A DNA stretch of 64,000 nucleotides from Phlyctochytrium arcticum. Its lineage: Eukaryota; Chytridiomycota; Chytridiomycetes; Chytridiales; Chytridiaceae. A model generated the notes under the pieces. The model did not search any database and was not told the origin of the DNA. It saw only the letters and a list, made by a program, of their open reading frames with translations. Numbering within the stretch: position 1 is the stretch's first letter; every line of letters starts with the position of its first letter. The DNA lies in NCBI GenBank assembly GCA_025602905.1, contig JAHLKI010000003.1:744001-808000 (forward strand), given 5' to 3'. A program made the position numbers and the translations under genes. This document shows, piece by piece, positions 20,457 through 47,879 of the stretch.

Positions 20457-21845
20457 TCAGTCAATAACTACTGCTGTTGTATCCTCTCCGAACTTTTCTT
20501 TTGGTTGTAATTCGAGAACCGTGACAAAAAGCCTTAGCCAAAACAGCGCAGGAGCATTTAGACTTAGTTCAACTGCCTTCTGAATTGTCTTTTCTCCTAT
20601 TGCTCTCGTTTCCGTGGGTTTCCACTTAAGTGTGCTGGGATCTTCAAACATCCAAGTGTTTGTCCGAGCTCCGGCTAGCTTCAGGACCTTAAACCAAAAC
20701 ATTTCTTAGTTGGGTCTCTCCTTTGAGGTGAAGATTCCTGGGAATATTGAGACTTACACCAGGAACTCCTGCATCAATTGGTGTTGTACGTTTTGATTTT
20801 CTTCCCACAACGATGTACAGTGTGACAGGTGAGAGAGTATTGTCTTTGCCACCGGCCTTTACAGGCTTGACGTATTGATAAACGATGGGGTCTGGATAAC
20901 ATCCGAATTGGTTGAATACAGTAGGTTTTGCACCGCCCATTGAGTCTTCACAGCCCGATCCCAGACAACAAAAAGAAAGGGATGTGTTCCATTTAACTTG
21001 GAAAGTAAGTGAGCTTGCTGTCCCTGCCACGCACGGTCTTCATTGCCGGTGTAGTCCAAAACCATCAAATTCTTCTCCATGGAACTTGTGGTGAATGCAT
21101 GAAAAGTCATGTGTCCAAGTTGCGGGAAGTTTGTCCCATCCGCATTGACCATTTGTCCCTCCGCACTGATGTAAACCCCCGGTAATCCATCCAGGAACGT
21201 CAACACGCCAGCTTCATTGACTCCTTGAGCAGCCCCCACATGCTTCCACATTTGAATATGGTTCTTGGTAACATTGACTCATATGGTGGATTCCATGTCT
21301 TTCAGCTCTTTGCGTTCTATGCCCCGGTTTATGGCCCCTGCCCGGAGATCCTGAATGAGGGCCAGATGCGTCTTTGCATCTGTGATGGCTCCTTCCGCAT
21401 CACTCCTAGGCAAACCCCTTTTGTATTGCTGGTAGTGGTGATATAGGTATTTCAGGTAGTAGAGAAAGTTGTCCACATCAGGGCCAGTTGTTTCGTAGTC
21501 GGCTGGACGAAGGCGGTAACTGCAAAAGACAGTCAATATTCCTGGGAACATTGGCACCGTGTACGTTTGTACTCACCTGTTTGTGACAAGGGACTTTCCA
21601 TACAAGTTGGCCATTAGAGAGTTTCTCGAATACGTTTTTTTAAAATCCCCGAACCCAAAACGGTTTGACCGACAGGCCGGTACCGTTGAGACGCGCCAAA
21701 TGGGCTGGGGCACGTTTTCGTTTCTTGAAATCGTTGCCTTTTGTCAGCACGGTTTCGCTGACTAAGCAATGGCCGACGTGTCCAAACCAGTGCAGGTACC
21801 TGAAGCGAGTAAGATCTAGGTAGATTGCGACACCAGAACATCACC

Positions 21846-22886
21846 ATGCCGTCCCGACACGTCCTTATAGCCATCGCCCTACACCACAACCAGCAGCAGG
21901 AAAGGCAGAGAAAGGGTCCAACCATCCTCAACTGGAAGGTGCTCAGTGAGGAAAGTTTCGGGGATAAGTTTTGCTTCAAAAAAGCCGATTTCCCTCTTCT
22001 CTGCGACTCCCTGCAACTGATCCCACAGAGGATCACGAGTCGGTACTGCAGTGCCGTTGCCACGAAGGAGGAAGCGATCCTACTTGTTCTCCGCCGATTG
22101 GTCTACCCCAATCGCTGGTGTGATTTGCAGCAACTTTTCAGCCGTTCAAAAAGTTGGATGTCCGTCATTTTCAACACCACAATCACCATTATCTTTGAAG
22201 CCTACCATCCACCCCTCTTTCACTGGGATGTGCAGAGATTGGACCAAGTCTGTCATCAAGGCTTTAGCGAGGCCATCCACGAAAAGACTGGAGTCCTGCC
22301 GACGTTCATTGGATTCATAGACAGCACCGTCCGCGCCAACTGCCGTCCATCAATCCACCAACGTCAAGTTTACAATGGCCATAAGCAGTTTCATGCCCTC
22401 AAATACCAATCGGTCAGCACCCCCAATGGGATCATTGTCCACTTGAGCGGTCCTTTTATTGGAAAGCGGCATGACGCCAGAATGCTCTGTGAGAGTTTTT
22501 TGGACGAGTCACTTCTTCCAGCAACTCTCTTTGGTACAACGCGGTATGTGCTTTACGGTGATCCCGCATATCCCCTGTTGGAGTGGATGGTGGTTGGCAA
22601 CAACGGAAGCAACGTGACCGAGGACGAAGCTGCGTTCAACACGCGGATGTCCGGGGGCCGGATCTCTGTCGAATGGTGCCTCAGCAAGATCATCAGCATC
22701 TTTGCGTTTGTCGACTTTAAAAAGAATTTGAAAGTTCTTTTGCAGCCGATTGCGCACTACTACATGGTAGCTGTGTTCTTCACCAATCTCCATACTTGTC
22801 TGTATGGCTCTCAAACTTCCTTGTACTTTGGAGTGCAAGCGTACTTGCGGACAGCGCATTTGGGTAGCGATGCAGAGGTAGAATAG
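21846..22886 (+). CDS. Harbinger DDE transposase
   Basis: Intact ORF of 346 residues from ATG 21846 (the frame upstream has only TTG). DDE_Tnp_4 type: GFIDSTVRANCRP (first Asp, about residue 157), GPFIGKRHDARML (second Asp, about 209), YGDPAYPLLEW, and ISVEWCLSKI with the catalytic Glu (about 275). The variant DST in place of DGT marks the subgroup with Y-N-G-H-K-x-x-H-x-L-K. No stops or frame breaks, so it may be functional. Confidence 0.9.
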   Translation: MPSRHVLIAIALHHNQQQERQRKGPTILNWKVLSEESFGDKFCFKKADFPLLCDSLQLIPQRITSRYCSAVATKEEAILLVLRRLVYPNRWCDLQQLFSRSKSWMSVIFNTTITIIFEAYHPPLFHWDVQRLDQVCHQGFSEAIHEKTGVLPTFIGFIDSTVRANCRPSIHQRQVYNGHKQFHALKYQSVSTPNGIIVHLSGPFIGKRHDARMLCESFLDESLLPATLFGTTRYVLYGDPAYPLLEWMVVGNNGSNVTEDEAAFNTRMSGGRISVEWCLSKIISIFAFVDFKKNLKVLLQPIAHYYMVAVFFTNLHTCLYGSQTSLYFGVQAYLRTAHLGSDAEVE

Positions 22887-23005
22887 AAGTAAAGTAGGCA
22901 GCGTTTGGTTTTGGTTTGAATAAATATTTTATAAGAAAGATACTGTAAAGAAAGATGTCAAAAATGTGGAATGTGAAAGAATAAATAAATAAATAAAAGA
23001 AAAAA

Positions 23006-23950
23006 TTACAAGAATGGGCCGGGAGGTGGGGGTGGGGATGGTTGCTGTGGCTGCTGTTGCTGTAGTTGTTGCTGTAGCTGTTGCTGCTGGTTGAGGACGA
23101 GTTGGAGGAGGGTATTCATCTGGTTGGCTCTGCGGCCGTTGTCCACCACACGCCGCTCCTCGAGCGCGAACCTGCGCTCTTCCATCTCCTGCTGCACAAC
23201 GGCCTCCTGCATGGCCCAGTCTCCCACATCCAACCTGGGCTTCTTCCCCTTGTTGGGACGAGGAGCGGCGTTGTAGGGTCCGGCTCCAGTGGCCTCTTCA
23301 CCGTTGGAATCTGCAGGACAAGTCTTACGGGCCATCGTGGTCAACGCCGCGGCCCGCAGTTTCTCGCCCTGGGATTCCTCCCGGGCCACCTTTGCCTTCG
23401 CCTCCAGAACCTCAAGCTCATCCGTCATATTAATGAGCTCCGTCAGGAGCAGCTCCCTCTCCTCAAAATCCTCATCCACCCCCGTGGCTCTCAGGGATTT
23501 GAGCTCGCCTTCTTGAGGAGGAGGAGATACCGGTCGGTGCAGCGGCGGGGGTCGCAAAAATCCGCCCCGCAATCCTTGTTCTTGTTGCACGCGGCGGATA
23601 CGGCCTCCCAGGCCTCCTTTTTGGCGTGCACGGAGGCTTTTTTGGGGGGAAAATACTTGACAACCTCTTTGAGGAGGATGATCTCATGGGCAGGCTGGAT
23701 GTGGGGGCGCTTCTTCTTGCGCGGGGTGGTGGAAGATGTGGGGGTGATGGAGGACGTGGGGGTGATGGAAGACGTGGGAACGGGGAGGGGCGCGAGGTAG
23801 TGGGGGTTTGGGGTAAACTGGCTGGGGGGGCCGTCTCCGTACGTAGTGGTGGTGGTAGTTCTGGTGCCAGTGGGGGTGGTGGTTATCACTCTGGTGACAG
23901 AGGAAGAGGAACTTCCTTGTTGCTGCTGCTGCTGCTGCTGGTACTCTTCG
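23006..23950 (-). pseudogene. SANT/Myb-like Harbinger accessory gene, frame breaks
   Basis: Partner gene of the element. The upstream frame has a CAG-repeat tract, a Thr/Pro-rich linker and the SANT-like part ILLKEVVKYFPPKKASVHAK and RRCTDRYLLLLKK. A different frame continues EGELKSLRATGVDEDFEERE, a coiled coil (MTDELEVLEAKAKVAREE) and a C-terminal poly-Gln tail. The two frames meet near 23505-23515, most simply by a one-base change. The only good ATG (about 23960, before the CAG tract) is out of frame with the SANT part, so repeat slippage may have caused a second break. Confidence 0.65.
23918..23941. repeat. CAG/CTG trinucleotide repeat
   Basis: TGCTGC run on the plus strand, coding for Gln, Ser or Ala depending on frame in the minus-strand accessory gene. 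Length change here would shift that gene's frame when it is not a multiple of three. Confidence 0.7.
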
Positions 23951-24990
23951 TCATCTTCATCTCAGTATTAGTTGTTTAGGGGGGTGCCGTTGTTGTAGCC
24001 CATTTTTTCGATTTTGAGGGTTTGGAGTGCGAAGATCTAGGAATCTAGGTGATTTTTGGTCAGTTGTATACCAAGATCTGAGCAAAAAAAGTCAAAAAAA
24101 AGGCTTTTCAAACCGTTTTGACCTGACAAGTTTGGGACTCCAAAACCGTGGGAACGAAGTGGTCAACACGACTTCAACTCTCAAACCACGGTTCTGGATC
24201 GCGTTTCTTAGGGTTACCGTGAACCAAGTCGCAAAATCTTAACGGGGATTTGCAAAAACGTATTTGAGAAACTCTCTATTGTGATGATTTCATCGGAACC
24301 GTTTTCCATCATGCCCATGAGATGCTTCTCTTGCTCGAGTAGTTTCAAGGCTCTCTGGGGAAGGTGCGAAACCTGGTAGTATGAGTGCCAACTGGTTGAC
24401 CTGAGATCGTTTTTGTGGGGTGCTTTGTTCTCTTCATCAGCAACAGCCGCAAAATCATTTGACGGCACCACTTTTGTTGGATCGTCTTGCAGTTCATGAC
24501 AGACCTTGTTCAACCGAAGAATCTTATCTGCAAATGTCATTTTTACCACCCGCTTACCCGCGGGATTGAGTCCCATCCCAAGGAGCATTTGAACAACCAA
24601 TGGAGTCCCACTTTTCAGTATTTTTGCTGTTGGTGCCGGCATTCAAGGAATGGTCAGTATTCCCTGGAAGATTGAAAATCCAGTGCATGAACCCACAAGA
24701 ACTACGGAATTATCCTCGGATTGTAGCTCGCGCAGGGCCGTTGCCCGGTGTAGACCATCCACAATGCGGTACATGGGTAGATCCATATCATGAACTTTGA
24801 CAGTTTGAGGCGTAGATTTCCCCATGAGGACTAGATCGCGGTTTTTCATGAAACCTTTCAGTAGCGAGACTGTTCAAAAGAACATCAATATTCCCGGGAA
24901 CATCCAAGTTGTTTAAGAGTCTAACTCACTTCAGCTTGTCAATGTCTGGCCTGGATACTTCCCGTAATGGGGTGTGATCGTTAATATCCA

Positions 24991-25154
24991 TGTTAGGATT
25001 CAGGATTCACAGCCACATCCAATGCTGTACGATTCGGCCATAGGCCGCAGAACCACATTTCTTTAGGATAGATTGGGGACTGAAACCTATATAAGGCAGC
25101 TCATGTATACCCTTTCCCTTTAATGACTACTGTACCTAGTACCGATTCTCAACA
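24991..25154 (+). repeat. 5' LTR of copia element
   Basis: Begins TGTTAGGATT and ends CTCAACA, 164 bp. It includes a TATA box and, near its 3' end, the first ATG of gag. Confidence 0.95.
25088..25095 (+). promoter_or_regulatory. TATA box in the copia LTR
   Basis: CTATATAAGG about 35 bp before the gag ATG; identical in the 3' LTR (about 29722-29729). Likely the element's promoter. Confidence 0.6.
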
Positions 25155-28100
25155 GGTTCTGAGCACTGTTAGCACTAACAATACTTCTGCAATACTGTTG
25201 AACAACACCACCAATCATATTGATGCGGACCTTACCTCCATTCGACTTGAGAAAGTCAGCAAACATCTCTATAGAAACATTCCGACTCTGTCCACGGTCG
25301 GTACCGCTGAGGATGTCAGCCACAACCTAACAAGTTTGGCTTCAACATATCGAAAATTGGCTTCCCATGGCCATCAACCACGAGCCCAACGTGCACTCAT
25401 TAAATCGAAGTTGGACGGCAAGGCCAGTAACCTTCTACAAAGAGGCACCTAGACCACTGCGGCGGAAATTATTACCATTCTGAAGGATACATATGCTGCA
25501 AAAGGGACGGACTACTCGATTTCTTTCAACTCTGTAACCTCAAACAAGTATCAACAATCTCGGAATATAATCCAAAATTTAACGAGCTACTACAAAAAAG
25601 AGAGGAGCGACTTTTACGTACAACAACCATTACTCTATTTTTGCAAGGACTCCGGGCCAACATCAAAATTCTGACACTGAACGAAGTCAAGCAGGGAAAG
25701 ATTTATAAACTTGACCAAGTTCAGCAATTTGTTGATACTTACAAAGTTGACTCCAAGGGCTCAAAAATTACGACTTACGAGCCTCCCGTCAAACAACTCC
25801 AATACGCGACAGCACATACTTAATTTAAGCCTAACACAAGCTTCAACAAAGTTAAACCTTTCTTCAACAACAACAACACCAACAACCCTGCTGTGTGCCA
25901 AATTTGCAGGCGCACTGGACATTTGGCAGACCAATGCTACTGCATCGAGCGGGCTCAAGACTTTATCAACAAAAAAACGACCCCGCGCTGAGATGGAAAA
26001 GGCACACAACATTTCCACTCAAGAAGAGGCCAACCACCAAGACGACAAAGGTGCCGCAATCGAGTCAGACAGCGACTGACTATATGGCTGCTCCACAGAA
26101 GTTACACAACCTAAAGCTACACAACCATGGCTTCTGGACTCTGGCGCAACTACGAGTGGGATACCTTTTCAAAGCGATTTAACAAACCTAAAAACATCCT
26201 CCAAACGCATTCATGTCAGTAATAATCAATTTGTCCAAAAATGCTTAGAGGGCAACCTCACCCTTACTCTTCCGGGCACCAAAATTATTGTAAACTTGCC
26301 GACTACCTTACATTCCAACGAACTGGGTGCGCGCCTGATCTCTGTCTCAAAACTTGCCAAAGCAGGCATTTTTACGTTATTAACCGACCGTGCTGCCATA
26401 CTTCTTGATGCCTAATCCTTTCCGCCAGAATTTGCTCAACAGATCTTGGATTCTTATCAACTCGCCTCTTACCCAATGGACGATGCGGGCACTTATCAAC
26501 TACCTACGACAACGGCAGCCCCCACAATTGAGACAGCTATGGCTCTAACAACCTTTACCGAAGTACACACTCGTCTTGGACATGTCAGCAAAAAATCTCT
26601 ACTTTGCATGATTGACCAAGGCCTTAATCTACCGGATATTGACCCTACCAGCATCCTGAGCAAGCGGATTGCCTTGTGTGTGCGCAGGCAAAACTATCCT
26701 AGAAACCGTTTGGCATCGCGGAGCGCAAGACATTGGGCAACCTGCAAGTTGTCCAATCAGACCTACTGTAGTTTTCCCTCCACAAAGTACGCCTGGGCCC
26801 CACAAATGTCTGATATCTTTTGTTGACAGACACTCTCGATATACGTTCGTGGCTCCCTTAACGCACAAGACACAGGAGCAAACTCACAGCGCACTTATTT
26901 CCTACTATACGGATGTCGTCGCTCCCAAGGATGGAAAAATCATGATATTGAGGACCGACGGTGGCAAAGAATACAACAACGGACTCTGGAAGAAAGCCCT
27001 TGAAGAGAAATACATCCGCCACGAGCAGACATTGACCGACACCTCCCAGCAGAACGGAGTAGTCGAACGCTTCAATCGATCCATCATGACCATCGTTCGT
27101 TGTCTCTTACACCATGCCAGTGACCTCCCGCATGAATTTTGGTCGTACGCCGCAACATATGCCTGCGAGTTATACAACGCTGGCCCACATTCCGCTCTTC
27201 CCAAGTGCATCACTCCATACCAGGCCTTCCATGGAACGAAATCGGACCTAACTCGATTCCATACCTTTGGCAGCATTCTGTATTATCAATCCGCCGATAT
27301 TGATCTCAAGAAATTCACATCACGCGCGCAACGAGGCCGTTTTCTCGGGTACGCCGCACGACAGGACGGTATTTACGTTCTGGATGAAACCACCAAGAAA
27401 GTTGAAATGACTCGCGACTTCATATTCATCTCTCCAGCAATTGTCCGACACGAAGGCCTGCAGGAACTTCGTTCTGTAGATCAAATTGAACAACTGCTCT
27501 TGCTGGTGGACGAAACCCCTGAACCAAAGACATACGCTTCTGTGGTTGCTCCTACAAATCCGGAAGCTGAACAATGGCAAGCGGCCGTCAAATCGGAGCT
27601 GGACTCCTTAATCGAGAACGACACCTGGGAATTAGTTCCTCGACCTAAGGGCCCGTGCATTATGGGTTTTCAAGAGGAAACGTAACGCGAATCGACAAAT
27701 ATTGCGACACAAAGGCGGAGTTGTGGCTCGCGGCTTTGAACAAGAATACGGCATTGACTTCGTGGCATTTTCGCCTGTTGTCAAAATCCAGACCTTACGA
27801 TTTGTCTTGGCGCTTTTGTTGATTTTGGGATTTGATGTTGACCAAATGGATGTTGTCACCGCTTTTCTAAACGGGCTCCTGCAGGAAGAAGTTTACATGA
27901 CGGCTCCCGATGGTATAGAGGCTCCTCCTGGATTTGTGTGCCGTCTCAAACGATGCATTTATGGCCTAAAACAAGCGCGGCGCAAGTGGAACCGGTGCCT
28001 TCACAAGTATTTGCTTTCTATCGGATACATTGATCCATCTCTCTATGTCAAGCTGGAAAACGGGTACCGGCCGTGCTCTTAGTTGTCTATGTGGACGACA

Positions 28101-29023
28101 TTTTGGTTGCTGCCCCAAAGGCTGTTCTTGTGGGGGTGAAAGCCCAACTGACTGCAGAGTTCAAAATGACCGACAGGGGGCCAGTTCACTATATACGGTG
28201 ACAAGAACGGCCTCTGGATTCACGTTGGATCAACGAGGTTACATTGACACCATATCGGAAAGATATCTTGGTTCTCGGATCAATGCTTGAAATACGCACG
28301 ACACACCGGCTTTAGCCTCAGCACCACCACCAACTAAAGAAGATATGCAACCGGCTCTTGCAGACACTCCATACAGGGAGACAATTGGAGCACCAATGTA
28401 TGCTATGACCAGTACAAGACCAGATATCGCCTATTCCGTTTCTGTCGCTGCTCAGAAAATGGCTTCACCCACAGTCGGCGATTGGCGTTCAGTAGTTTGC
28501 ATTTTGAGATATTAGAAGCGGACACAAAATCTCGGCTTAAGCTTCAGCAAATTAGATCCTTCCGCGATTCGGTCTGTCCTTGGGTATTACAACTCGGATT
28601 GGGCGTCAGACAAGGAAAGAAGGCGATCAAGGATTTACGTGTTCTGTTTGGGAGACATTTCTTCGGACCACCAGATGACAAACTGCTTGTCATGGCAGAG
28701 CAACCGTCAAGTTTCTGTGGCATTATCCTCCACCGAGGCGGAATACATGGCTGCAACGCAGGCTACAAAAGAAGCTTACTGGTTCCGGCAAATATTGTCT
28801 CAGATCAACCTCCCACCAAAAGCACCCTCAACAATTATGATCGATAATGAACCAGCCGAACGCTTAGCTAAGAATCCCATCAACCATTCAAGAACAAAGC
28901 ATATCGATATTCAACACCATTTCATACGAGAGGCGGTAGAGACAAAAAATGTTACAATTCAGCATGTTCCAACAAACAACAACATCGCGGACATTTTTAC
29001 CAAACTTTTCCCTATTGGGTAAT
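25123..29023 (+). pseudogene. copia gag-pol, many stops and frameshifts
   Basis: Starts MTTVPSTDSQQVL at ATG 25123, inside the 5' LTR. TAG interrupts gag at 25450. Later parts, in changing frames: CCHC knuckle (CQICRRTGHLADQC, about 25892-25936), protease (WLLDSGATTS, about 26130), pre-integrase HTRLGHVSKKSL, integrase with SFVDRHS, RTDGGKEYNN and NGVVERFNRS (D, D, E), reverse transcriptase with VARGFEQEYG, DVVTAFLNGLL and YVDD (about 28088), then RNase H with ALSSTEAEYMAA and ending FTKLFPIG. Too many breaks for activity. Confidence 0.93.
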
Positions 29024-29159
29024 TTCAAAAGTTAAGGCGTTGCATAGGACTTGTCGAATTATGATTAGCATTAGCAGTAACGAATTTATGTATAGCTTTG
29101 AATCAACATCACAAGCCTGTATCTGTTCAACAAAGAAATATTCTTCAACAATTTATCCA

Positions 29160-29293
29160 GCTTGAAAGACAGTGCAACAACACTTGTCATTGAACTTGAA
29201 AGACAGTGCAACAACACTTGTCATCGAACTTGAAAGACAGTGCAACGACACTTGTCATCGAACCTGAAAGACAGTGCAACGACACTTGTCATC
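29160..29293. repeat. 34-bp minisatellite, about 4 copies
   Basis: Tandem unit CTTGAAAGACAGTGCAACAA followed by CACTTGTCATTGAA, with point differences between copies. It lies in the copia 3' untranslated part before the 3' LTR. Confidence 0.85.
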
Positions 29294-29624
29294 TATGAAG
29301 GCGGAGCGGAGCACCACTCGATCCTATCTAGAGCGGAACAACATCTACCACACGGCCACAAACATCATCGAGACTGACATTGCGCAATACGAGAACACAA
29401 TTCTGTACACGATTCTGCAGCTCACAAATGATGGGTGGACCGATGCGGAGAGTTGTGGATGAACCCGGCTTTAAAGAAGGACAAGGGGGGCACGACTTCA
29501 GTCAAACAACTTCAACCTGAAAGACATTATATATTCTTCGATTTCTGAGAACAACTCAAAACGATTTCAACTACTGGACCGACACATTATCCTCAAAGCA
29601 TTGGACTGTAGCCGTGCGGGGGTG

Positions 29625-29788
29625 TGTTAGGATTCCGGATTCACAGCCACATCCAATGCTGCGCTATTCGGCCATAGGCCGCAGAACCACATTTGTTTAG
29701 GATAGATTGGGGACTGAAACCTATATAAGGCAGCTCATGTATATCCTTTCCCTTTGATGACTACTGTACCTAGTACCAATTCTCAACA
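29625..29788 (+). repeat. 3' LTR of copia element
   Basis: 164 bp, TGTTAGG...CTCAACA, about 95% identical to the 5' LTR (8 differences by eye). A G-rich stretch (GTGCGGGGGTG) just before it is a plausible polypurine-like primer site. Confidence 0.95.
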
Positions 29789-30240
29789 ATCCAGTTGTTG
29801 CACGTGGAGATGTAGCGGGATCAACGTTTCTTTATAGCACTGGCCGTCTGTCTGTTTGAGTCGGCTTGGGTCAACAAACTCCCCATCCGTGATCTTAACA
29901 AGTTGGGTGCATCCGTGAATTGCCCACTTGGGCATTGCCTTGTCAATTGCATTTACTGTGGCACTTGGAGATATGGCTGCATTTGAGGTGGATGATGCTA
30001 GGAGGTGGGTGTCATTTGCTTTGGCATCCGCTCAGTTGCGTTTTCTAAGGTGAGTTTAGGTCGGGATTCCTTGGAAAAGATATGGACAAAGTGAATAACT
30101 TACCCACTTGTCCTGTCTTGCGCAGGAATGCCAAGAGGTACATCGGATTCATTGGATCTATATGCCAAAAAAGGAGGTCAATATTCCCAGACCCATTGAT
30201 CAATGATACTCGCTGAATAATGCTTACGAGCCATCAGAAT

Positions 30241-30681
30241 CGGACATGACTAGCAGAACAAAATTGGCTTTAGCGGTGGTGTGCAGTTTGGTGAGAAAAA
30301 AGTTGTGTGATTTGTTGACAAAATCTGGACAATTTATGTTTTGGAAGTACATTCGGCAAAGGGGGACGCACAACCTTAGCCATATTTATATCAGCATTGC
30401 ATCTATTTTGATTTTCATCCAATCAAAAGGACCTCCCCGCGTGTTGTGCTCGAAACGCAGTCAGCCACTATAAGACACCAGAAGACACCACAATTTACAT
30501 GGAAATTAAAGCAAAAGTTGGCGTTTTTGGCTTTGATGGTATTGGGCCCCACCAATCACAGCCGCCGTTGCGACATGCGCGTGAACGCAAAGTCCGCAAA
30601 GATAACACGGTCGCGCCCATATATACCGCTGAATGCCAAACAATTTTCGTGCTGAACACTATATACAGATAAAGCGCTATA
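30241..30681. other. no gene seen
   Basis: No convincing ORF. TA at 30680-30681 is the left target copy of the Tc1 element. Confidence 0.4.
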
Positions 30682-31015
30682 CAGTGACCTCCAAAATTGT
30701 TAATGTGTTTTGATCTCTGGGGTATATGGCTCTGTTGCACATCAAAATACTATGACATCACCCCAAGCTGTATTACATCATTTTCATTGGCCATGGGCAC
30801 TCTCCATTTTTTTCTAAGATGTCAAATCTATTACATCATGATTGACATCATTGTGGTACAAAACATGTGACCATGTCATTCGAACAATTTTGGTGCACTA
30901 CTCAAAAAATGTGACATCTCATGCATTACATCACCTGGAGGCACTGTATGATGTCACTGGTTGCTGTGCGGATATATAAGGACCCCGTCCGCGTGCTCCC
31001 ACCCCCTTTTGTAAC

Positions 31016-32040: not shown

Positions 32041-32346
32041 AGTGTGATTTTCACTGTGAACTTACTTTTCTGACCTGTAGAATGGATCAATCTTGATAAT
32101 ATTTTATACAGACTTCTTGTCTAGAACACTCTTATCAAACTTACATTGGTCATAGTCATTTGTTCTTGTATTCAGTTTCTCTAGAATTGACTTTTATTTC
32201 CAATGGCAAAACACTTTAACAATTTTGGAGGTCACTGTAGCATCATGACACTTCCGACCGCTCTCCCCGAGTCCCCGTTCTATAAATAAAGGTCGTCCCC
32301 AAAGATGACATCCCTCGTAAAGTTCTAACGTCTCATCGAATCCCAT

Positions 32347-32748: not shown

Positions 32749-32800
32749 CTGCTGTGCGAAAATACCTCGATCCTAATCGTGGGGGATATTCAAAGGGCAC

Positions 32801-34547: not shown

Positions 34548-35213
34548 GTAGGCAGCCCTCAATGTTCCTGGGAATGTTGCCTTGATTTTAACCTTCCGAT
34601 CAACAGGTGGGCATCCTCAAACATGAGATCTTGCCGGGAACGTTGACCCTGTGCTAACATTTGCAACAGGGTGCCATTGAGCGATCTCATCCTGAAACCA
34701 AAAAGGGCCTATGGGCCAAACTACGTGCAGGAGGGGCAACTACACACCCAAACGTCCCTTTTGTCGTATTTGTATAAATTTCTTGTTTTTGTCCAGCCGA
34801 CAATAAAATTTTGTATTACTGACCAAAGACGCGCTTTTGCTGAGGTAATGTCGGACTTTACAACCAGACAGCAACAGATCTCATGTCCAGGCCACAAACC
34901 GACATTTTGTAAATTCCACAATGTCAATTTGGTCACATCGCTGTCTGCCAAAAATTACATCCTATCCACAAACATTTCTATGTTGAATAAGTAAAGATCA
35001 AACAGTCGTGTCCATTTGACAATTCACCACTTTGTTGCTTCTATATCCAGATTTGTGTCGGCTCAACAAAGTGAATCTGGGCCCGTTTTTTTCTTCACGC
35101 CCTGCCACTGGAAAAGTGTAATTTCGTTGCTCAAGAAACTCACTCAACCCATCCGTGAGCGTAAATCGCTAGAACATGCCTTTCTGACCCATCTTTTTTT
35201 CCCGACCTTCAAC

Positions 35214-38200
35214 ATGCCACGTCTTCCTCCCGTTGCCATGGAGGGTTCTTCCAGCGACTCGGACTCGGACCAACACAGTAGCGACTTCCTCGCGGGCGAG
35301 TACTCGAGCGTCTGGGAACCTTCCTCAGCTGGCCTTCTGCGTTGCACTGTGTGTAATGAAACCTCCCAACACTACCTTTCGCGCCTACAACGACATGAGC
35401 GGTCCAAATCCCATCAAATCCGTCTCAGGCAAAAAGGCCTCCAGGAGTTTGATTCAACCAGATCGGCCACTCCCTCCACCATAGATCAAACCCCCACCGA
35501 GCATAGTTCCTCGCCAAACTCGCCCTACAATCCCTCCACCAGTACCCAAGCCCTCCCCGAGCCCTACATTCCCGGCTATGTGCCGTTGTCTCTTTTCACA
35601 GAGGACACCGCCCAACCAAACGATTTCAATTTCAACCTGCATGCTCACCTGGAAGATATCAGATTTGGTGCAGCCGATGAAGAGCTAGCTGCGTTCATTG
35701 CCTCTTATCAGCCTGAAGATGACTACTTCTCGGACGATGAATCATCAGACAACGGGAATCGGATGGAAGCTCAAGCATTGGATGCATCCTCCACAACTTC
35801 CCAGAGTGATGATGATGAAGAGGAGCCCTCACAAGCTGGTGCTGACCCTTCTTATTATCCTTTCGCCAATCGATCTGAAGCATTGATCGCCATGCTCATG
35901 CACATTCCAAGGCACCACATGTCTGCAAAGGTTCTGGAAAACGTTTGGTGGTGGGGACGCCAACACAAAATAAAACTCTCAGCCGTGAAATCGATTAAGA
36001 AAAAGCTGAAAATTTATCAGGAAAAGGTATTGTGAACTCATTTAATATGGTAACGTTCCCAGACTAATTTGTTGCTATCCGTGCAGATTGGTGTCGAATC
36101 ATTTGAAACAACTACAAGACATGGTGTGCCCCTCACCATCAACAAGCCTTCTGCCATCGTGAAGCAGGAGATTGCCAACCCAATTGTCATGAGGCAGCTC
36201 AACACCCAAGCCCAACAGCTCTCGGGCATGATCTCTGAGCTATATCAGTCTGAAAAATGGACAACCAATCCCTATGTGCGTACCCCCATGATCAAACAAC
36301 GCTTTTTTGACTACTATCTTGGGGAGTTTGCGAAATTGAAGACTGGAGAGATCATCTGTATCGAAAACTTCTGTTTGGTCGATACAGCCCTATATGTTGA
36401 AGGATCCGAAGTGGTTGACAAAGGTGGAAACTTTTGGATAAATAAGCGAGCAAAAATCCGACGAGAGGTCAATGTGCTCGAAGGAAATGTTACTATCGAG
36501 ACGAGTACCTTGAAGGGATACATCTTTGACGGCCCATTGGGCATCCCCCAACGCCGATATTACAGCGAAATTGCCTCTCTCAACCTGACAAAACTCAATG
36601 AGCTTTGTGTAAGGGCAGGTGGTCATCGAGTCATCCTTGTCCCTTTGGTACTCTATTGCGATAATGCATCAGGAAACGTTTCCAAAAAGTGGAACGGTTT
36701 TTACAATTGGTACATGCAACTCGCCGGACTACCACATGACGAAATGAACAAGGATTTTAACACACATTTTACAGTATTGCTACCAGCAAAAAGTCAAGTG
36801 CTTTGGAAATGGCCGATGCAGTTGTCGATGACATTGTTGAAGTCCTTGAGAAAGGAATTGTCGCCTTCGACAGTATTGCGCGGGAGGAAGTCCTAGCCAT
36901 AGGCAGTGTGTTTTGCATCGAGGGTGACAACCCCATGCACGCCAAGCTTTGCTCTAACACTTCCATTGGCTCGGGTCTACACTTTTGTCGGTTTTGCCAC
37001 GCGAGTGGGAAGCTACATAGCGTGGAAGCATTGACGGCGTACCTGAGCTGCTCCAGGCCCAGATCCTGGGATGCAACGCGAAGTACTTTGGTCGAATACC
37101 TGAAACTCGCCGGCCAGCCTCGAGGGCAAAAGCAAATTCGGAGTGAAGATACAGCAACGGGCACCACATGCGCGTATACTTCCTACAACTTAACCACAAT
37201 TGCCGAATTTGCGGAGACTCCCACTTGGGAGGAAACAGCGGCTTATTGTCAGACGCTGGGACCCGATGATCCCATCATCAACCCCATTTTTCGATTAGGA
37301 AGGTGATTTGACGGACGTCGGGACACTCCCGTTGAGGTCCTCCATACCTTTTTCTTGGGAGTGGTCAAGTGGCTACTGCGCGCATCGCTCGACCAGATGA
37401 GTGCAGAGAACAAAGTCGCCTTCCTTGAAAATTGATGCTCTGCAGTCCAAAGGATTCTCCCGACCGCTGAAAGGCAAAGACTATATTCAGTATGGTTGCT
37501 CGGGAGTTGGAAAAGACTTTCGTACGCTGGTCCAGATCGCTTACTTAACCTTTGATGGAATTCTGCCCCCAAACTGGGTCATGGCATGGAGAGCAGCGGC
37601 AGAGCTCGGATCATTGATATTTGTCCATCAGATCAACAATCTGGATCAATATATTCACACTCTCCGTAATGCCACACATCAATTCTTCATTGCTACAGGC
37701 AATATAGCCCCGGACTTGTTTGGACGCCGCAAGTACCATATGCTTGTTCATCTTCTCAAAACGGTCAGGACATTTGGACCTGCGCGTGGGACAGAGTCCC
37801 AGAAGTTTGAGTCATACAACGGGGTAACTCGGGAGCAAATCATCCACACCAATTGGCAGTACCCATCGCGCGATGTTGCCGCATTTTTTATCAACTACCG
37901 CACCGTCCGACATATTTTTTGCGGAGGTTTTTGGAAAGAGGGTGATCACTGCACGCGTGGGGGTGATGGTTTGCATGAACTCTTCGACGATCAATCAATG
38001 CAAGAACTGCTAGGTAATTATATCGTTGTTCGATTCGCGTCATTTCACCTTAATTGATCTGGTTTGTGATTGATATAGGATTCAAAAAGAGCTATGACAA
38101 TGAAGGCAAAACAACACTTGGCTCCATGTGGGGGAAACGTGATAAACATCCAGTGCCTTTCTCAAGCACAGAGGCGTATCAACGAGGGTGTATTCAGCTC

Positions 38201-39123
38201 ATCAGGGGAACTGGGAAATTCATGCGCTGGAGACGCCTGACATTGGACGATGGTGGTAAATGCCATCCGAACATCATTGTAGGGCTTCGGGAGATTTTGG
38301 CCAAGTCTTGGAAATTCTTAGTGGCACGGCAAGCAGCAATGCAAACGTCAATGCACATAGGTGGATCTTGGTGCAACCTTATGAGCTGACCCACGAGTCA
38401 CACTTGGGCTGTCCGATTTTGCGTGATTCACCTGCTTTTGTGCTTCTTCCACCGTCGCAGATCATCGGCATCGCCAACATGCAACATCATTGTTCAGCTG
38501 TGGGTTGCGGAATGCAGACAGTTGACAATGCGCTGGGGAAAAGCACAACTTGGACCCACAAGGATGAGTCTGTGTTTGTGTTTAATCGGTTTGCTGGAGC
38601 ATCTGGCTGGGTGCGAGCTCATTACCCACACATGATCGAGCCAGTCAATATGCAAGATGCTGCCAAGGACATCTGGAGGAATTGGGAATTTGAGCTGAAA
38701 GCGGTTGCTGTTGCAATGGCAGAAAAGAAAGTCGAAAACGAAAGGAAGGCAGCAGAATGTTTGAAAAAAGCTGAGGACAAGAAAAAGGCTGCTGGACCGA
38801 AAAGACAAAAAGGAATTCATGCAAGTATTAGACCAGACCCTCAAGTTTTTCATGCGCCCCAGGACATCATCTTCCGGCAGTCACATGCGTTCAGCATACC
38901 CACATCCGGTACCGGCAGTATCTACCACGTATCCATACATCAGCAGCCTGTTCCATTGTCGAAGAGTCTTTGGATGGTGTTGATGGCAGATCGTCGCCAC
39001 AAATGGCACCAACATTGGGTGCCAAATGTGGACGGAAACGCAAGGGCTTCCTTGCACCAGCTTGCCGGAAATTTAACCTTACGGATCAGTGAAGAAGAGA
39101 CGTGGACAACCTCCCAAGAATAG
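35214..39123 (+). pseudogene. Plavaka-like transposase, copy A
   Basis: Exon 1 35214-36026 starts MPRLPPVAMEG and has a C2H2-like finger (LLRCTVCNE...LQRHERSKSH) followed by an acidic Ser/Asp-rich region. Intron 36027-36086. Exon 2 from 36087 has the hallmark of the family, VPLVLYCDNASGNVSKKWN (about 36640-36700), and HFCRFCHAS. Then an extra ACAGT-like 5 bp at about 36770, a TGA at about 37304 and further frame shifts near 37420 and 38290 break it. Later parts include TFGPARGTESQKFESYNGVT, an intron at about 38014-38079, then ELTHESHLGCPILRDSPAFV and a charged C-terminal helix. Related to the KDZ/CACTA-like transposases of basidiomycetes. Confidence 0.78.
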
Positions 39124-39229
39124 CCTTGGCGGAGGTGATGGGCATGGACCGACTGGATCTGGTTCGCGGCCATCTTGAGTGATTACATAAGCACAAATTC
39201 CGCCTGCCATCTTTTGAGCCACTTCGACG

Positions 39230-39600
39230 TACTCGAGTATACGAGCGTCCTCTGGAGCTCGTTGAGCCGCTTGGAGGTATCTTTTGGAGCATGTTGAGAC
39301 TAGACTTGAGCCGTTTCCAAAGTATTTGTGCCTGTTGAGCCGCTTGGAGGTATCCTTTGGAGCATGTTGAGACCAGTTTTGAACCTTTTCAAAGTACAGG
39401 TATCCTCTGGGGCAGTCTGGCCCCGGTTATAAGCCGCTGTAGAATACCATCTGAAGGATGTTGAGCCGTTCCAAGGTATCCCGCATGCCGCCATCATCTG
39501 GCCTGACCTTTTGTTAGATTCCTTCTTGAGCAGCGTCACCTGTATCATTCCCGCCTGGCCTTTGTTAGATTCCTTCTTGAGCAGCATCACTTGTATCTAT
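39230..39600. repeat. short direct repeats downstream of transposase A
   Basis: Two diverged units containing TGAGCCGCTTGGAGGTATC and TTTGGAGCATGTTGAGAC (about 39260-39302 and 39337-39374), and two units of about 48 bp with TTGTTAGATTCCTTCTTGAG (about 39512 and 39562). Counterparts occur in copy B (about 47940-48250). Confidence 0.6.
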
Positions 39601-39752
39601 CGTGATCTTTGTCATTACCCTTTGCAACAACTTTTTAATCACATCAGCTTTTCATTGTTGGTACGCATCAGTGATTGGGTCCAGAAACAGAATTCATTGA
39701 TCTACTGTATTTCTACAGTATCTCAGAACAAGAAGAACCAACTGCCAAGGGC

Positions 39753-40986
39753 ATGGCAGCCACAGCCGAAACTCTAATGGCATCGGCCAAACAACGGCGC
39801 ACCGCTTCTCGCCCGGCCAACATTCTTACTGCCGACCAGCTTGTTTTGGGTCCCGAAACCGGTCCGGATCCCGACCCTCTCGGTCCACCTGTTACACCTC
39901 TCCGCATCCATCCCCGCGCAACCACCGACCCAGAAGGGGTGGATCACAACCCCTTCTCAGACTACGGACACCCCCTTTCCTCCATGGAGCTTGGATTCCC
40001 CCTTCGTCCCTCCCAAACAGCTGCGATCATGCAGCTGCTCACGACTGATCCCATGAGACCACAATCGGTATGCAATTTGCAAATACTGGCTTGGGGGAGC
40101 AGCTGCTCCGAATCCACCACCAGAACATCCAGTACTCCCGAAGGTTTGATTCCTTGGAAGAGCTCCTTCTGCGAGCTTGAGAACCATCGGAGGCCCTGAA
40201 AGTAAGTGATTGGTTGACCGCATGGTAGACTCTGCAGGTGCCTGTATACTAACCACCGTTTAATACGTCAACATCCGCACCTATGTGTGCAAGGTAACGT
40301 TCAACTGCCGCCAGCAAATGTATGTCAAGGAGGCAACGCGCCTGGCTGACAAGATGTTTGAGAAGGAGCTGGGAGTCAGCAAAAAACTCAAAAAAGATGC
40401 CAACATCCGCAAGCAGGTCATTTACTTGTGCAGCCGGGAGATTACCCAGCAGAAGGGTGTTCTCAAGAGCCGCCTGCTCCCCAATGGGCCAAACGCGGAA
40501 GTCACCCATTTGCAACTGACACGCCTGATATCAGTTATCTACGGACTGCAGGAGAAGGATGTCTGACCGGACCAGAAAACGCGCGTGGCAGTCTTGGTAA
40601 GTTTAACAATCCCTGGCGTCCTGAATCTTTCCTCATCACTGATCATGTTGCTCTATGTCTCATAGCGCTGCCTCACCGACGCAATGTTGCACGCGGACAG
40701 GGCAGGCAAGAGGTACTGAGGCAAGATTACTATGGATTTGACCGAATACGTCGGTATGCCCGCGGACCTCTACAGCGGGTAAGTACAAACCGTGTTTCCC
40801 GCTACCTTTCAGTCACTAACCTGGAGGCAAAGGCTCCTGCACCAGACATACACGGATGACCTGAAAGAGTACCAGGACATGGACTTGCCGGCCGGGGTTG
40901 ACCCTATTCTTCTGTCTGACAGCGAGGACAAAGAAACTTCGCATCCACGGGTCGGGCGTGGTGTTGAAGAGGATGATGAGGCGTGA
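39753..40986 (+). pseudogene. Unknown second gene of the Plavaka-like element, copy A
   Basis: Multi-exon gene without a domain I recognise. Exon 1 has MAATAETLMASAKQRRTASR and a Pro-rich part. A later exon has CRQQMYVKEATRLADKMFEK and KQVIYLCSREITQQKGVLKS, then LLPNGPNAEVTHLQLTRLIS. The last exon ends in an acidic tail (VDPILLSDSEDKE). Copy B has an ATG further upstream (MSEQEEPTAK), which is ATC here (39720-39722), so this copy uses a later ATG or is dead. A TGA after LLLRA is present in both copies and may be a real exon end or an alternative product. Confidence 0.55.
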
Positions 40987-41739
40987 GACGGAGTAACAAT
41001 GTTGTATTAATACCTATTCTATTTATTCTTTGGATTCGTATCAGTTTTTCCATTCACTTGTTTATTCATTTTTTACACCATTTTAACAATATATTTTATG
41101 AGCAGCACGCCGGCACCCAAAGGCTGACAATTTACTGGAATTTGAACCGCGCAGTTGAGATTTGCGCTGCAGTTTTTTTGGTTCAGAGTCAAGCTAAAAG
41201 CGCGTTTCGAAAATCCGGGGCCGCGCTGTCGGTTCAGCTGGGTTCAACCGCGGCCACCTCGCAGGCGCCTGGCGTCTCCCGCGCTTAGCAGCCCCGGCGG
41301 CTTTACGTAAGCCGATTTTAAGGCCGCTTTGCTCGCGCCGCGCTCACAAACCGTCAAATCTCAACCTACCTCGCGAGCTTGGTTGAGGTCGCAAGACGCG
41401 TCGGCGACAACCAACGCGTCAAACAGCAAATTTTCCCTAAATCCAAAAATTCTCCAAAATGTATTATCTTGATTGGAAAAAATGCACAATGTGCAATACA
41501 CAATCCACAATGCTTCCCCAAGTTCCCCAGAACAATCTGCCCTATGAAACGACGACATTTGATGCATTTCCACGGGCCAAACGCCTGCAAAGCACAGGTT
41601 GCGGATGAATGAAACAGCCAAGGCCAATGTCCATTCCCCACCATGGTTAGAAAAGGGGCTGTTACCCGGCTATAAAAGGAGCAGCCTGTCTGCCAGTTTC
41701 TCTCCCTCAAGTTCAACTTTACCTGCCTGCAAAGCCATC

Positions 41740-43070
41740 ATGCCTAGCTCAAGCGACTCTTCCGACTCTTCCGACTTTTCCAAATCTTCCCACTCTTCCC
41801 GCACTCACGCGTCTGGACTCTCTGGCAGCTCTATTCCAATCGATTGGAGCCTCTCTCCCGGTCGTGTTCGTGATCCGACTGTCACCCCCGAATCGACTCC
41901 GCCGCCTCTTGATCCAGTTGTCAAATCTGGTGCACGCAAAAGTACCCAAGAGAAAAGGGCATCGGTCAGGGAATTTCCCAGCGACCAAGCCTCCGGGTCA
42001 GCAACTGTAACCAAGGCACGAAAGAAGCGGCGGACTGGCGCTGAGATGGAGGAAGACAGGATCGCCAGCGATCTCGCCAAGCACCAGCAGCTGTTCGCCA
42101 AGGCTGTTGCCAAAGGAGCCCAAATTGCCACCAAGGCTCAAGAGGCAGCCGCCAAGAAACTAGCCCAACAAAAGAAGAAAGAGAACAAGCAACTGGCCAA
42201 AGAGGCAGCGGTGGCCGCCAAGCGACAAGCCAAGGACCTCATTGCCCAAAACAAAGCCGCGGAGAAGGCGCGGAAGGAACAAGAAGCTCAGGAAAACCTC
42301 AGCACGTCGCGTCCTTCCTGGACCGCTCAAGAAAGCTCGGCATTGGTGGAACTCTACAACAAAGCGCGCGAACATGTCAAGGCAAAGTTCCTGGCCAGCG
42401 ATTTCAATGCCGCGTACACTGTCCCGGAACTCAACAAATTCCTTCAACTTCGTTGGGGGGGAAGCAGGCTCGCGGAGAGGTGGACCCTGGAGCAATGGTT
42501 TCAAAAATGGCGAAACATCTTGAAGGACTACAAGGCACCAAACTGAGTACTACTGGGAGCGAAGGAGTTGGGGCCTCTCGGCTCCGATACCCTTGGTGGG
42601 ATACGATGGTGTTGATGATGGGATCGTCGGCCGCCACCCGCCCGGATGCCATGGTTGACAGCCTTGGCGGCATTGACTACGACCTCGCCAACATGTTGGG
42701 AGAGTTAGGACCCTCCTCTTCCGCCGGACCCTCCTCCTCCGCCAGACCCTCCACTGCCACTGCCGCCGGACCCCCCTCTGCTCCACCCAAAGCCCGAACC
42801 TCGTTGAGGTCGGACAGCCGCAAACAGAAGGAGAGCCAGGCCGAGGACGGACAGCAGTCCTTCATCAGAGCGCTAATCGACGCTCAAGACGCCCGTGAGG
42901 ACCGGCGCCAGGAGATCGAGCTACAGAGACAGGAGGAAAGGGATGACGTCCGACGCCGAGAGGAGGCAGCCAGAGATGACACCAGACGCCGAGAGGAAGG
43001 CGCAAGAGAGGACAGATTCCTGGCCCTCATGGCGAGGTTCGCACATAGACTCCCCCCTCCACCAAATTAG
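41740..43070 (+). pseudogene. SANT/Myb-like Harbinger accessory gene, one frame break
   Basis: Starts MPSSSDSSDSSDFSKSSHSS at ATG 41740. Order: Ser-rich and acidic N terminus, a long Ala/Lys/Gln coiled coil, then the SANT-like part (PSWTAQESSALVELYNKARE and QLRWGGSRLAERW...WRNILKDYK). The first frame ends at 42546. The next frame continues STTGSEGVGASRLRYPWWD, then Ser/Pro-rich sequence and an Arg/Glu-rich coiled coil to 43070. A one-base change near 42535-42543 would join them. Confidence 0.75.
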
Positions 43071-43181
43071 TATCAGAATAGACTAGACTACCATATATAG
43101 TTATAGAAAATATATTATGCTCAACCTAACTTCAACAATAAACTAAAAAAACTAAAATAAACTCTCAACGACGGCCTTCTC

Positions 43182-44360
43182 TCATACGTATTTCAGTCGC
43201 GGTGTTCCCGGTCCAGATCTCATTCGCAATGCAGTTGCGCAGCGCAGCCGCGGGAATCTCATCGCGAGTGAGATTGTCGGGGTCGAGAGCAGCGGCACTG
43301 GTAGGACAGATGTCCACCTTGTCCCATTCCCCTCCTGATACGTGCTGGCTGCGTTATTGGACGCCAGGTTATGCAATATCATGCACGCGTGGGCGACACG
43401 AACTACAAAGCCGACATCTTCCTGCTGCTCGACCTTGAGTATTCTCCAGCGGCCCTTCAAACGGCCAAAGGACTGCTCGACAATAATGCGTGACGAGTGC
43501 ATGAAATTGAAATTGAGCTGCTTGGCGGATGGGTTGACCAGACCCTTGTATGGTACCATCATATATGATGCTAGTCCGTAGCCTGAATCCCCTAGCAAAA
43601 AGTAGTTGGGAGGAAGGATAGAGTTGCTGCTCCTCAGAGACTGACCGAGCTTGGAATTGGTAAAAACACGGCTGTCATGAACGCTTCCTGCCCAGCCGAT
43701 GTTGACCTATGCAATGAGAAGACGCATGAGCGCGGGATGAGGTGCACACTGGTAAGAAGCAACATACATTGCGAAAGAGACCTTGCGCGTCGCAGACCGC
43801 CTGGCAAATGATGGATTGCTGCCCTTCTCGATCGGTATAGGCATTGTCAATCTCGTCGCCCACTGGCTTTCTCAGCCGGAAATGGGTGCCATCAATGGCG
43901 CCACCAATGCCAATGATGTTCCGCTGAGCAAAATCAGCGGAGATTTGCTCCCAGCCTTCTTGGCGATGGCTTTTGCCACATCCACGCACGCTACTCTGAC
44001 GGCAGAGATGGATACTCTGAAGACGTCTGCCACTACTGGCTCCGACGCACCATGGCCCCACCAGTAAAGAGCGATTGCCAGACGCTTTTCCACCGCGTGG
44101 CCCCCTCTGGTAGGATTCTTCCAAAGTAAGTCGGCGGTCTTGGCCGCTACCCTCTCGAAGAGCTGCCGGGATAGACGAAAGTGTCTGAGGAAACATTCGC
44201 GGGTGTCCGTCAGAATGCACCTCTCCCAAAGACCGTCAACGGGGGTTTGACGGGTACCAGATGGGCAGATCTTGCGGGATGGTTTGGGCGGCTTTAGTAA
44301 ATAAAGGAGAACAGCTGGGTTAGTGAGGATAGAGCGTGGGCGGGATCGGGCCTTGGGCAT
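43182..44360 (-). pseudogene. Harbinger DDE transposase, one-base loss
   Basis: Minus-strand gene from ATG 44360 (MPKARSRPRSILTNP). Exon 1 to 43768, intron 43767-43707 (61 nt), exon 2 43706-43182. Motifs: GAIDGTHFRL (first Asp), WAGSVHDSRVF (second Asp), GDSGYGLASYM, IVEQSFGRLKGRW (Glu). The frame breaks near 43956-43960 between VDVAKAIAKK and GWEQISADF. One lost base there also explains why exon 1 is one short of a multiple of three. Otherwise it is complete. Confidence 0.85.
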
Positions 44361-46532
44361 GTTGGGTGAGGTTGGGGTGAGTGTCGTAGTGAAGATGTGT
44401 GTCAAGATTGGTGCGCGACCTCACCTCCAAAAACATTGATGCGGCCAGACCAAAAATCCTGCCAGGTGGCTGGCAAGACTCTTTGGGCGCGCCATCCGCA
44501 ACCCGCCGGTCCGGTAAATTGCTGGTTGAGTAAATTGTCGGTTTCAACCGCCCAAAAGTCTGCAAATTCCTGAAACAAAAATCGCTTATGAATATGCACT
44601 TTTTTGGCCTGCGCAATCTCAACCGCGCGGTGGAGTTACTAATTTGTTTTGTATCTGGGACAATGGCTGTTGATTTTGAAGATCTGGTTGTGGGCAGCCA
44701 TTGTGGATTTGACAAAAGCCAGTTTTGTGATACTGACAAAGATTGCCCCGGTTGCGTCTGGACAAAACGCGGTTTTGTAGCTCCCACAAAACTCAGTTGT
44801 CCTGACAGCAAAAAATCTGACGTCCAGCTTACAATAGATTATTTGGGTGTGTAGGTTCACAGATGTCGTTCAGCTAAACAGTTTTCTAAAAGAAACAACA
44901 ATGGCGTTCAATCACGAGCGACATAGCGTTCATTGGCATGTCCCTTTTGAGGTGAGTAGCAGCATCAATCTTCCAGGGAATATTGCGTTCTCTGACAGAT
45001 CTTGAATCAGGTTTTCCATGGCCGCACCAACTATGGATACTTTAATCCCACTAACACAAAGATGGACCAATATTTTACCGAGTATCAATTGGAAAACATC
45101 AATTGTGAAATGGATACACGACTGAGAAAGCGATCGGCACAAGATGTGAGACGCAGCATTCAGAAAAATCGTATCCAGAAGGGCTTCCGCCATTTTGCGA
45201 GCGAGTGGGATGGAAAAGGAAGCCGAAATCAAAGGAAAATCCCCAAGGGATATCCAGGGTTACGTTTTACAGGACTGGCAACACTTGTTGAAAAAAAAGG
45301 GGAGAGTAACAACTGGTCTATCAAATGGCGCTCCGTACCAAACGTTGGCCTTAATTGAGCGAGTAAAGAAAAGATTGGAGACAAAGCTGACCGACAATAC
45401 CACGAGCGTCTTTTTGCAAGGATACCAAAGCAAATAAAGAGTCATCAATCAGATCACTGTTGGAGGAAGTAGTGCGACCTGATGAGCTCTTTGATGTTGA
45501 ATGCATCCTTGCAAAGTGCTGGAATGAAGTTACTGGTGGTGAGTATCTGTCTGCGGTTTGAAGTCAACTTTCCCAGGAATATTGATATCTTTGTTTTTGT
45601 AGACTGGGAGTGTCTTGTTCTTTGGGAAGGCTGGGACCCCTCGTGGGCCAATTGGGAGCTGGTTGATAATGTCTTTGGTGGCCACCAACAACTCAACAGA
45701 CTGCCAGATGTTACCCTTATGGCAGAAGACAATATTGATGAGATTTTGTGGGACACACAATGGGGGTCAAATGAGCGATCTGGGGTAGGGGATCAACAAC
45801 GTGACTCTGATGACAATGAACATCCAAGATCCATGTTGGATACCCCCGGTGATATGTCTGAATAGAATGATGATTGGTGGGATGCAATTGATTATGACGC
45901 AACCCAAATCCAAACATCTACCATTGTTCAAAACGCAAACTTCGATATTCCCAGGAAGACTGACACAACCGCCACCTTCCCCCCCAAGTCGACACCTGCT
46001 GTTAGAGATGCTTTGGTATCCAAACTATTTAAAATTAGCAAGGGCACCTGACCAACCAAAATACCAAAGCCAAAAAAGAAAACAAAAATCAAGATTATTG
46101 CAGAACAGCCGCGTACCATCCGCATCCCAACAATTCAGGAATTGGCTCAAGGTTGGTCGACTGAAACCCCAGTCTGCACTGACACCTACACACCCAGATA
46201 ATCTATTGTCAGCTGGACATAAAATTTTTTGCTGTCAGGACAACTGAGTTTTGTGGGAGCTACAAAACCGCGTTTGTTCAGACAGCAACCGGGGCAATCT
46301 TTGTCAGTACCATGAAACTGGCTTTGTACAATCCACAATGGCTGCCCACAACCAGATCTTAAAAATCAACAGCCATTGTCCCAGATACAAAACAAATTCT
46401 TATGGTGCCAGCGTGCTGCTGATGAAGTATATTGTTAAAATGGTGCAAAATAAATACAAAAATGTGAAAGGAAAAACTGATCCAAATGCAATGAATATAT
46501 AATAGGGTTTAATACAACATTATTACGCCGTC

Positions 46533-47802: not shown

Positions 47803-47879
47803 ACTGTAGAAATACAGTAGATCAATGAATTCTGTTTCTGGACCCAATCACTGATGCGTACCAACAATGAAAAGCTGAT

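Follow-up and report, generated by a model that had tools for sequence, protein, structure and literature searches.

A palindromic motif repeated in the introns of a Ginger-like transposon group of Phlyctochytrium arcticum: a candidate dispersed protein-binding site

The window analysed here, a stretch of 64,000 nucleotides from Phlyctochytrium arcticum (assembly GCA_025602905.1, contig JAHLKI010000003.1, positions 744,001 to 808,000), carries the scattered pieces of a DNA transposon whose introns share a 22-bp palindrome, TCAATATTCCCGGGAATATTGA, with the core TTCC-NN-GGAA. The initial annotation had listed this palindrome at 11 places, mostly in the introns of a minus-strand and of a plus-strand gene, and had proposed either introns that spread as units or a conserved intronic binding site. 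From the sequence, an intronic binding site still appears tenable. The spread of introns as units finds no support, because the motif is confined to one element group and lies within unrelated intron flanks.

The motif-bearing pieces of the window are colinear with a single stretch of contig C17 of the same genome, the best copy of the element, where window positions 21614/24278, 24990/29789, 30681/32235, 34742/44852 and 46188/58887 are neighbours. Between window positions 32800 and 34545 the element lacks about 620 bp. Given this colinearity, the two genes are the divergent gene pair of a single element: an integrase gene on the plus strand and, on the minus strand, a second gene with a ParB-like signature. 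As judged from the alignment, the window copy is one two-gene element split by six insertions, an origin that the initial annotation had missed. The C17 copy carries a large insertion of its own, which is Helitron-like as read from its protein letters.

Each of the 11 places contains the motif, some in a degenerate version, with two weak cases. When a strict match was defined as three mismatches or fewer to the palindrome, six sites were found in the window, the first of them at 20729 instead of about 20733 as initially given, and 100 shuffles of the window yielded none. At nine of the 11 sites the surrounding sequence can be read as a GT...AG intron. The acceptor of the intron at 24654 is intact in C17 and broken in the window (GCCGG for GCAGG). 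Around the copy at 45942 the frame is open, but the sequence can also be read as an in-frame intron of 63 nt, with the donor GTTCAA, an ACTGAC and an AAG end; for this reason the copy was not used as proof, from coding sequence, of a role in DNA.

The whole genome (31.5 Mb, 91 contigs) contains 45 strict matches, and none to the reversed pattern. A looser pattern, the motif plus a trailing C with up to two mismatches, gave 59 matches per strand (control: 0). After masking of the motif, the flanks of 42 of the 45 matches are homologous to one transposon group, 23 of them best to type B and 19 to type A; two of the 42 (loci L018 and L020) rest on flank matches of 41 and 38 bp only. Group A elements (C17, the window, C25, C6 and relics) have both the integrase gene and the second gene, or parts of them. 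Group B elements measure about 0.9-1.7 kb, are bounded by terminal repeats of the form TGTCAC... and carry pieces of the second gene. The second proteins of A and B are mostly 30-50% identical over exon pieces, and 47-51% identical in a hand-typed four-row alignment. Ends were sought in 11 short-element loci and both were found in six; five of these have equal 4-bp flanks (CATA, TCAG, ATCT, AAGG and CAAA), and L016 does not. Integrase-bearing copies show one TGTCA end in C17 and ends resembling terminal inverted repeats in L014, with no target duplication seen. In seven loci (L007, L008, L009, L014, L016, L021 and L029) a terminal repeat itself contains a copy of the motif, which in the B majority sequence lies 88-110 nt from that end.

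Three of the 45 matches lie elsewhere. L022 belongs to a third gene type whose second protein is 38% identical; L010 resembles L030, a further place with the motif; and L012 is unexplained. At this mismatch level, and apart from these three, the genome-wide counts suggest that the motif is confined to the element group. The L012 copy (L012:4933, C13:279532) is a lone motif with two mismatches and no recognisable element flanks. At L010:4958 and L030:1023 the motif is followed by a tail like the 3′ end of an intron, alike in two contigs, and the L010 copy sits among GTCGAACG repeats.

Table 1. Motif copies, element pieces and insertions in the window (P, introns of the second gene; I, introns of the integrase gene).
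Feature	Position	Strand	Basis or remark
Palindrome, intron P6, adjoining donor	20729..20750	-	3 mismatches
Palindrome, intron P5	21533..21554	-	3 mismatches
Palindrome, intron P4 (acceptor AG lost in window copy)	24654..24675	-	3 mismatches
Palindrome, intron P3	24885..24906	-	3 mismatches
Degenerate palindrome, intron P2, TTCC-NN-GGAA core only	30061..30082	-	9 mismatches counted by hand; C17 counterpart 10
Palindrome, intron P1	30178..30199	-	5 mismatches
Palindrome, intron I1	34559..34580	+	4 mismatches
Palindrome, intron I2	34625..34646	+	7 mismatches counted by hand
Palindrome, intron I3	44965..44986	+	3 mismatches
Palindrome, intron I4	45564..45585	+	3 mismatches
Palindrome, open frame or possible 63-nt in-frame intron	45942..45963	+	4 mismatches
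ParB-like gene fragment, 3′ half, methylase-like region, introns P6 and P5	20139..21614	-	~94% DNA identity to C17; tblastn
ParB-like gene fragment, GLHRATALREL signature, introns P4 and P3	24278..24990	-	90% DNA identity to C17; tblastn
ParB-like gene, 5′ part (introns P2, P1), and part of intergenic region	29789..30681	-	88% DNA identity to C17
Integrase gene, first part	32235..32800	+	93% DNA identity to C17; 88-90% protein identity, query 1-139
Integrase, back-to-back introns I1 and I2, then exon with region of last catalytic residue	34545..34742	+	97% DNA identity to C17; exon match
Integrase C-terminus with chromodomain-like region; introns I3, I4	44852..46188	+	C17 alignment; chromodomain E 0.14 on C17 copy, below cut-off
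Further 3′ element part, downstream of integrase frame, after insertion	58887..59160	+	83% DNA identity to C17; gene assignment putative
Nested Harbinger-type element (DDE_Tnp_4)	21615..24277	.	Domain match; flanks adjoin in C17
Nested long terminal repeat (LTR) element, 164-bp terminal repeats, Copia-type by eye	24991..29788	.	Repeats; flanks adjoin in C17
Nested DDE_3 element	30682..32234	.	Domain match; flanks adjoin in C17
Nested Crypton-like (NDC10_II) insertion, ~620 bp of element missing	32801..34544	.	Domain match; C17 alignment
Large insertion	34743..44851	.	Flanks adjoin in C17
Large insertion	46189..58886	.	Flanks adjoin in C17

Two repeats were seen inside the nested elements: in the reading frame of the DDE_3 transposase, 40 bp are perfectly duplicated in tandem (31315-31394), and the LTR element has a tandem repeat of 34 bp close to its 3′ end (29155-29290).

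Fifteen introns were modelled in the two C17 genes from donor, acceptor and frame. The motif, at up to seven mismatches, is carried by 13 of them, one site to each; P2 retains a degenerate core and P7 has none. At up to five mismatches, 12 of the 13 copies in the element stretches scanned lie inside modelled introns, the thirteenth being readable as a further 63-nt in-frame intron, and one more place outside introns has seven mismatches. The right end of the motif often provides a branch-like TTRAC or TTGAT, and in all but one of the 13 introns the motif ends 13-33 nt ahead of the acceptor, close to the 10-30 nt originally stated. Such a distribution would suit an element-wide splicing signal in the pre-mRNA, with the 3′ half serving as branch site, a splicing factor reading the rest, and the introns being removed together only in the presence of that factor; the Mer1 meiotic splicing regulon of yeast offers a comparison. 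Position 23, which a branch site needs to be C or T, is one of these in 20 of 25 unique A sequences and in 22 of 22 unique B sequences, and no copy stands between the two C17 genes. However, the placement is not uniform. In P6 the motif abuts the donor and ends 41 nt before the acceptor, in I3 the motif is followed by a separate CTAAC (read by eye), P2 and P7 were mentioned above, and in the L022 gene one of the three introns placed carries the motif and two do not. Copies in terminal repeats also speak against a splicing signal.

Moreover, the two-fold symmetry of the motif is unexpected if it is read as single-stranded RNA. Over 14 C17 copies the left half holds 13.4 bits of information and the right half 17.3 bits; the right half alone overlaps the branch site, yet the left half is informative too. 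An uneven form of the motif, TTAATATTCCCGGGAACATTRA, is found both along and against the direction of transcription (B introns iv and v). The arms pair less well with each other than they do after column shuffling, in the A group (n=25, P(>=)=0.997) as in the B group (n=22, P(>=)=0.988), values that are not strict probabilities since the sequences are related. This fits half-sites that are read independently and not a hairpin. Folding of the introns, which had been proposed at the outset, gave nothing unusual: six introns folded no better than their shuffles (z -0.3 to -1.6), and no Rfam family matched at gathering score in the 20-47 kb part of the window. In the absence of arm covariation and of unusual folding, an RNA hairpin was rejected as unlikely. 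The missing covariation and ordinary folding count against the splicing signal as well, and on balance we regard it as somewhat unlikely.

The number of introns, their similar lengths (49-83 nt) and their common motif could also reflect descent from a single intron that moved or was duplicated inside the element, with the palindrome as its last recognisable part. P8 and P9 are indeed near-copies, each with its own motif, that arose by tandem exon-intron duplication in the second gene (L024:6251-6453; C17 concatenate 16152-16354). Introns I1 and I2 follow each other directly, with no intervening exon (...CAACAG|GTGGGC..., window 34545-34667), each with its own motif; the arrangement recurs in C17 and, diverged, in C6 (L025 2311-2400), and the junction is a possible point of stepwise (recursive) splicing. 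Against such descent, alignment of the C17 introns outside the motif gave a mean local score of 7.94 compared with 7.65 after shuffling (114 comparisons), with a maximum of 15 in both, so that the 13 motif-bearing introns have no overall similarity in their flanks, while the motifs themselves average 74% identity. Furthermore, A and B have introns at two common positions, one following RATALRELQYED... and the other following GKxLVTN. As these positions are kept across proteins that are about 30-50% identical, the introns there are old and their motif is still near the consensus, which speaks against recent copying of introns. Outside P8 and P9, whole introns are not alike; nor do they occupy many unrelated host genes, the motif showing no spread beyond the element group at this mismatch level save for the three matches noted. 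Introners were accordingly set aside as the principal account, and common descent of the introns within the element seems distinctly improbable.

A palindromic core such as TTCC-NN-GGAA is typical of dimeric factors, and intronic enhancers exist. The motif might thus be a host transcription-factor or chromatin site that the element captured as intronic enhancers. With only three of 45 matches outside flank-recognised element DNA, one of them in the related L022 gene, a host regulon using the strong form of the site is not visible, although weaker host sites would be missed at this threshold. We consider a captured host site similarly improbable.

The first gene of the element encodes an integrase, with an rve core (expectation value (E) 3.5e-7, 30.9 bits) and an H2C2 zinc domain (E 4e-4, 20.9 bits), both below the curated Pfam cut-offs of 32.6 and 25.5 bits respectively. 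The DD35E spacing was counted by eye, and a weak chromodomain match (E 0.14) was obtained in the later part of the C17 gene. In the parts scanned, neither an OTU nor a Ulp1 domain was matched. A homologue search with the integrase returned two weak matches. The second gene displays, by eye, the sequence YRIVDGLHRATALREL, which we take to be a ParB-like signature, a label that no library confirmed. It is followed by a region similar in layout to N6/N4 DNA methylases, without the usual DPPY and GxG letters, and from this pattern the second half of the protein is perhaps a degenerate DNA-methylase-like domain, again with no library confirming it. No match to the ParB family PF02195 was obtained anywhere in the genome up to E 10, with a positive control in 11 of 14 genomes. 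Two genomic matches to the methylase family PF01555 (C3:84342 and C1:1498389) were discarded as the element's methylase: they are below cut-off, lie outside the element, and resemble other methyltransferases in their letters. In the PDB, the ParB alignment matched designed leucine-rich repeats; this match was dismissed as a sum of repeats. No homologue of the ParB-like protein was found among 7999 scored candidates, and a pattern scan of IMG/VR gave 0. Searches of phage and plasmid sequences by tblastn with pieces of the protein gave only E 0.8 to 10, with no ParB-named record among the matches listed (in one search, 40 of 95 records).

Taken together, the restriction of the motif to the element group, its single occurrence in each intron that carries it, symmetry without covariation and a terminal-repeat copy in some relatives point, on sequence grounds, to the palindrome being a dispersed duplex binding site for a protein of the element or of the host. 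A two-fold symmetric protein would recognise it as double-stranded DNA along the transposon, the introns hosting the motif as the free non-coding space of the element and its 3′ half often doubling as their branch site. The likeliest binder would be the ParB-like second protein, although the integrase or a factor of the host may take its place. The bound protein would mark the element from end to end, with anti-silencing, self-recognition or expression control as possible outcomes, as VANC does for VANDAL elements. Binder, effect of binding and splicing itself are all predicted here.

Several observations weigh against duplex binding. The C17 intergenic region of about 500 bp, which would be free for a binding array, has no copy at up to six mismatches (nor at up to seven, in a scan that left out some 20 start positions at a border). 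In an alignment of 17 B copies, two of the four sites exceed the greater part of the element in conservation (96th and 93rd percentile), and the remaining two, that of the terminal repeat included, rank at the 34th and 30th percentile. Several copies with target duplications have lost the core in one terminal repeat (e.g. L013 and L011). The strict intronic placement and the overlap with the branch site would suit a role in RNA equally. Confinement is backed by genome-wide counts rather than by a direct sample of host introns, and the window copy is broken. Finally, the second protein has no ParB match in Pfam, PHROGs or NCBIfam, and its methylase-like label has no support from any library searched. 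Because of the empty intergenic region, the two unremarkable B sites, the lost terminal-repeat cores and the intron-only placement in group A, our preference for duplex binding is a tentative one, short of even confidence, and a splicing role, the chief rival, keeps some weight. A more specific form, in which a protein combining ParB and a degenerate methylase would coat the element from end to end through single sites in nearly all introns, in the manner of ParB and parS, and the use of a half-site as branch point by most introns would couple binding to splicing, appears unlikely.

No report of such an intron motif in a transposon was found in titles and abstract beginnings of the open-access literature with the terms chosen. 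If the RNA reading were true, the element would possess a transposon-wide splicing switch. In either case, a motif common to many introns need not mean mobile introns. Fungal introner-like elements and sister stwintrons, as presented in passages of their description, are whole introns that are alike and occupy new positions across the genome (PMC8469720). Intronic inverted symmetry and repeated introns are common to both systems, but in the present case the shared sequence amounts to no more than 22 bp and stays within one element group.

With respect to its transposition machinery, the element resembles Ginger transposons, whose description includes a Gypsy-type integrase with zinc and DDE domains, terminal inverted repeats, 5′ TGT ends and 4-bp target duplications (Bao et al. 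2010, PMC2836005). The integrase here likewise has an H2C2 zinc domain and a DDE core, and the short elements have inverted repeats with TGT ends and, at five of the six loci with both ends, 4-bp duplications. The target duplications of Ginger1 are given as CCGG or CCGT (PMC2836005), unlike the five found here, and since this rule fails we classify the element, from its sequence, as Ginger-like and not as Ginger1. Ginger1 is further characterised by a GPY motif and by an OTU or Ulp1 domain at the C-terminus. The element also differs in its additional divergent gene, in the lack of OTU and Ulp1 matches within the scanned parts, and in its 15 modelled introns in two genes, compared with 0-4 per element among the rows listed for Ginger (PMC2836005).

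The second gene has a parallel in Sola1-1_Ec32 of Ectocarpus, described as carrying a ParB and DNA-methylase accessory gene on the strand opposite the transposase (PMC12477816). Here too an accessory gene on the opposite strand has a ParB-like signature followed by a methylase-like region, and it is this published precedent that makes the ParB-plus-methylase reading plausible. The transposase is of another type, however, and the domain calls made here are pattern readings in which the catalytic motifs look lost. The available passages on Sola1-1_Ec32 describe no binding motif. ParB-plus-methylase genes of algal transposons may, according to the same source, bind and modify their own element, in a passage that names no target (PMC12477816). 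In the present element the palindrome is a candidate for such a target; its consensus is clear, and a few dozen natural variants of it exist within a single genome.

The closest analogue of a dispersed duplex site is provided by the VANC proteins of Arabidopsis. VANC21 is described as concentrating on introns, intergenic and terminal non-coding DNA of VANDAL (MULE) elements (PMC5735166). VANC motifs are reported to be tandem repeats, whereas the introns of the present element mostly hold one 22-bp palindrome each. Intergenic regions are bound in VANDAL elements too; the corresponding region of C17 was negative, and the sites here are predicted ones. Both systems share a short motif repeated in introns and in terminal non-coding DNA, in a transposon with an accessory gene (PMC5735166).

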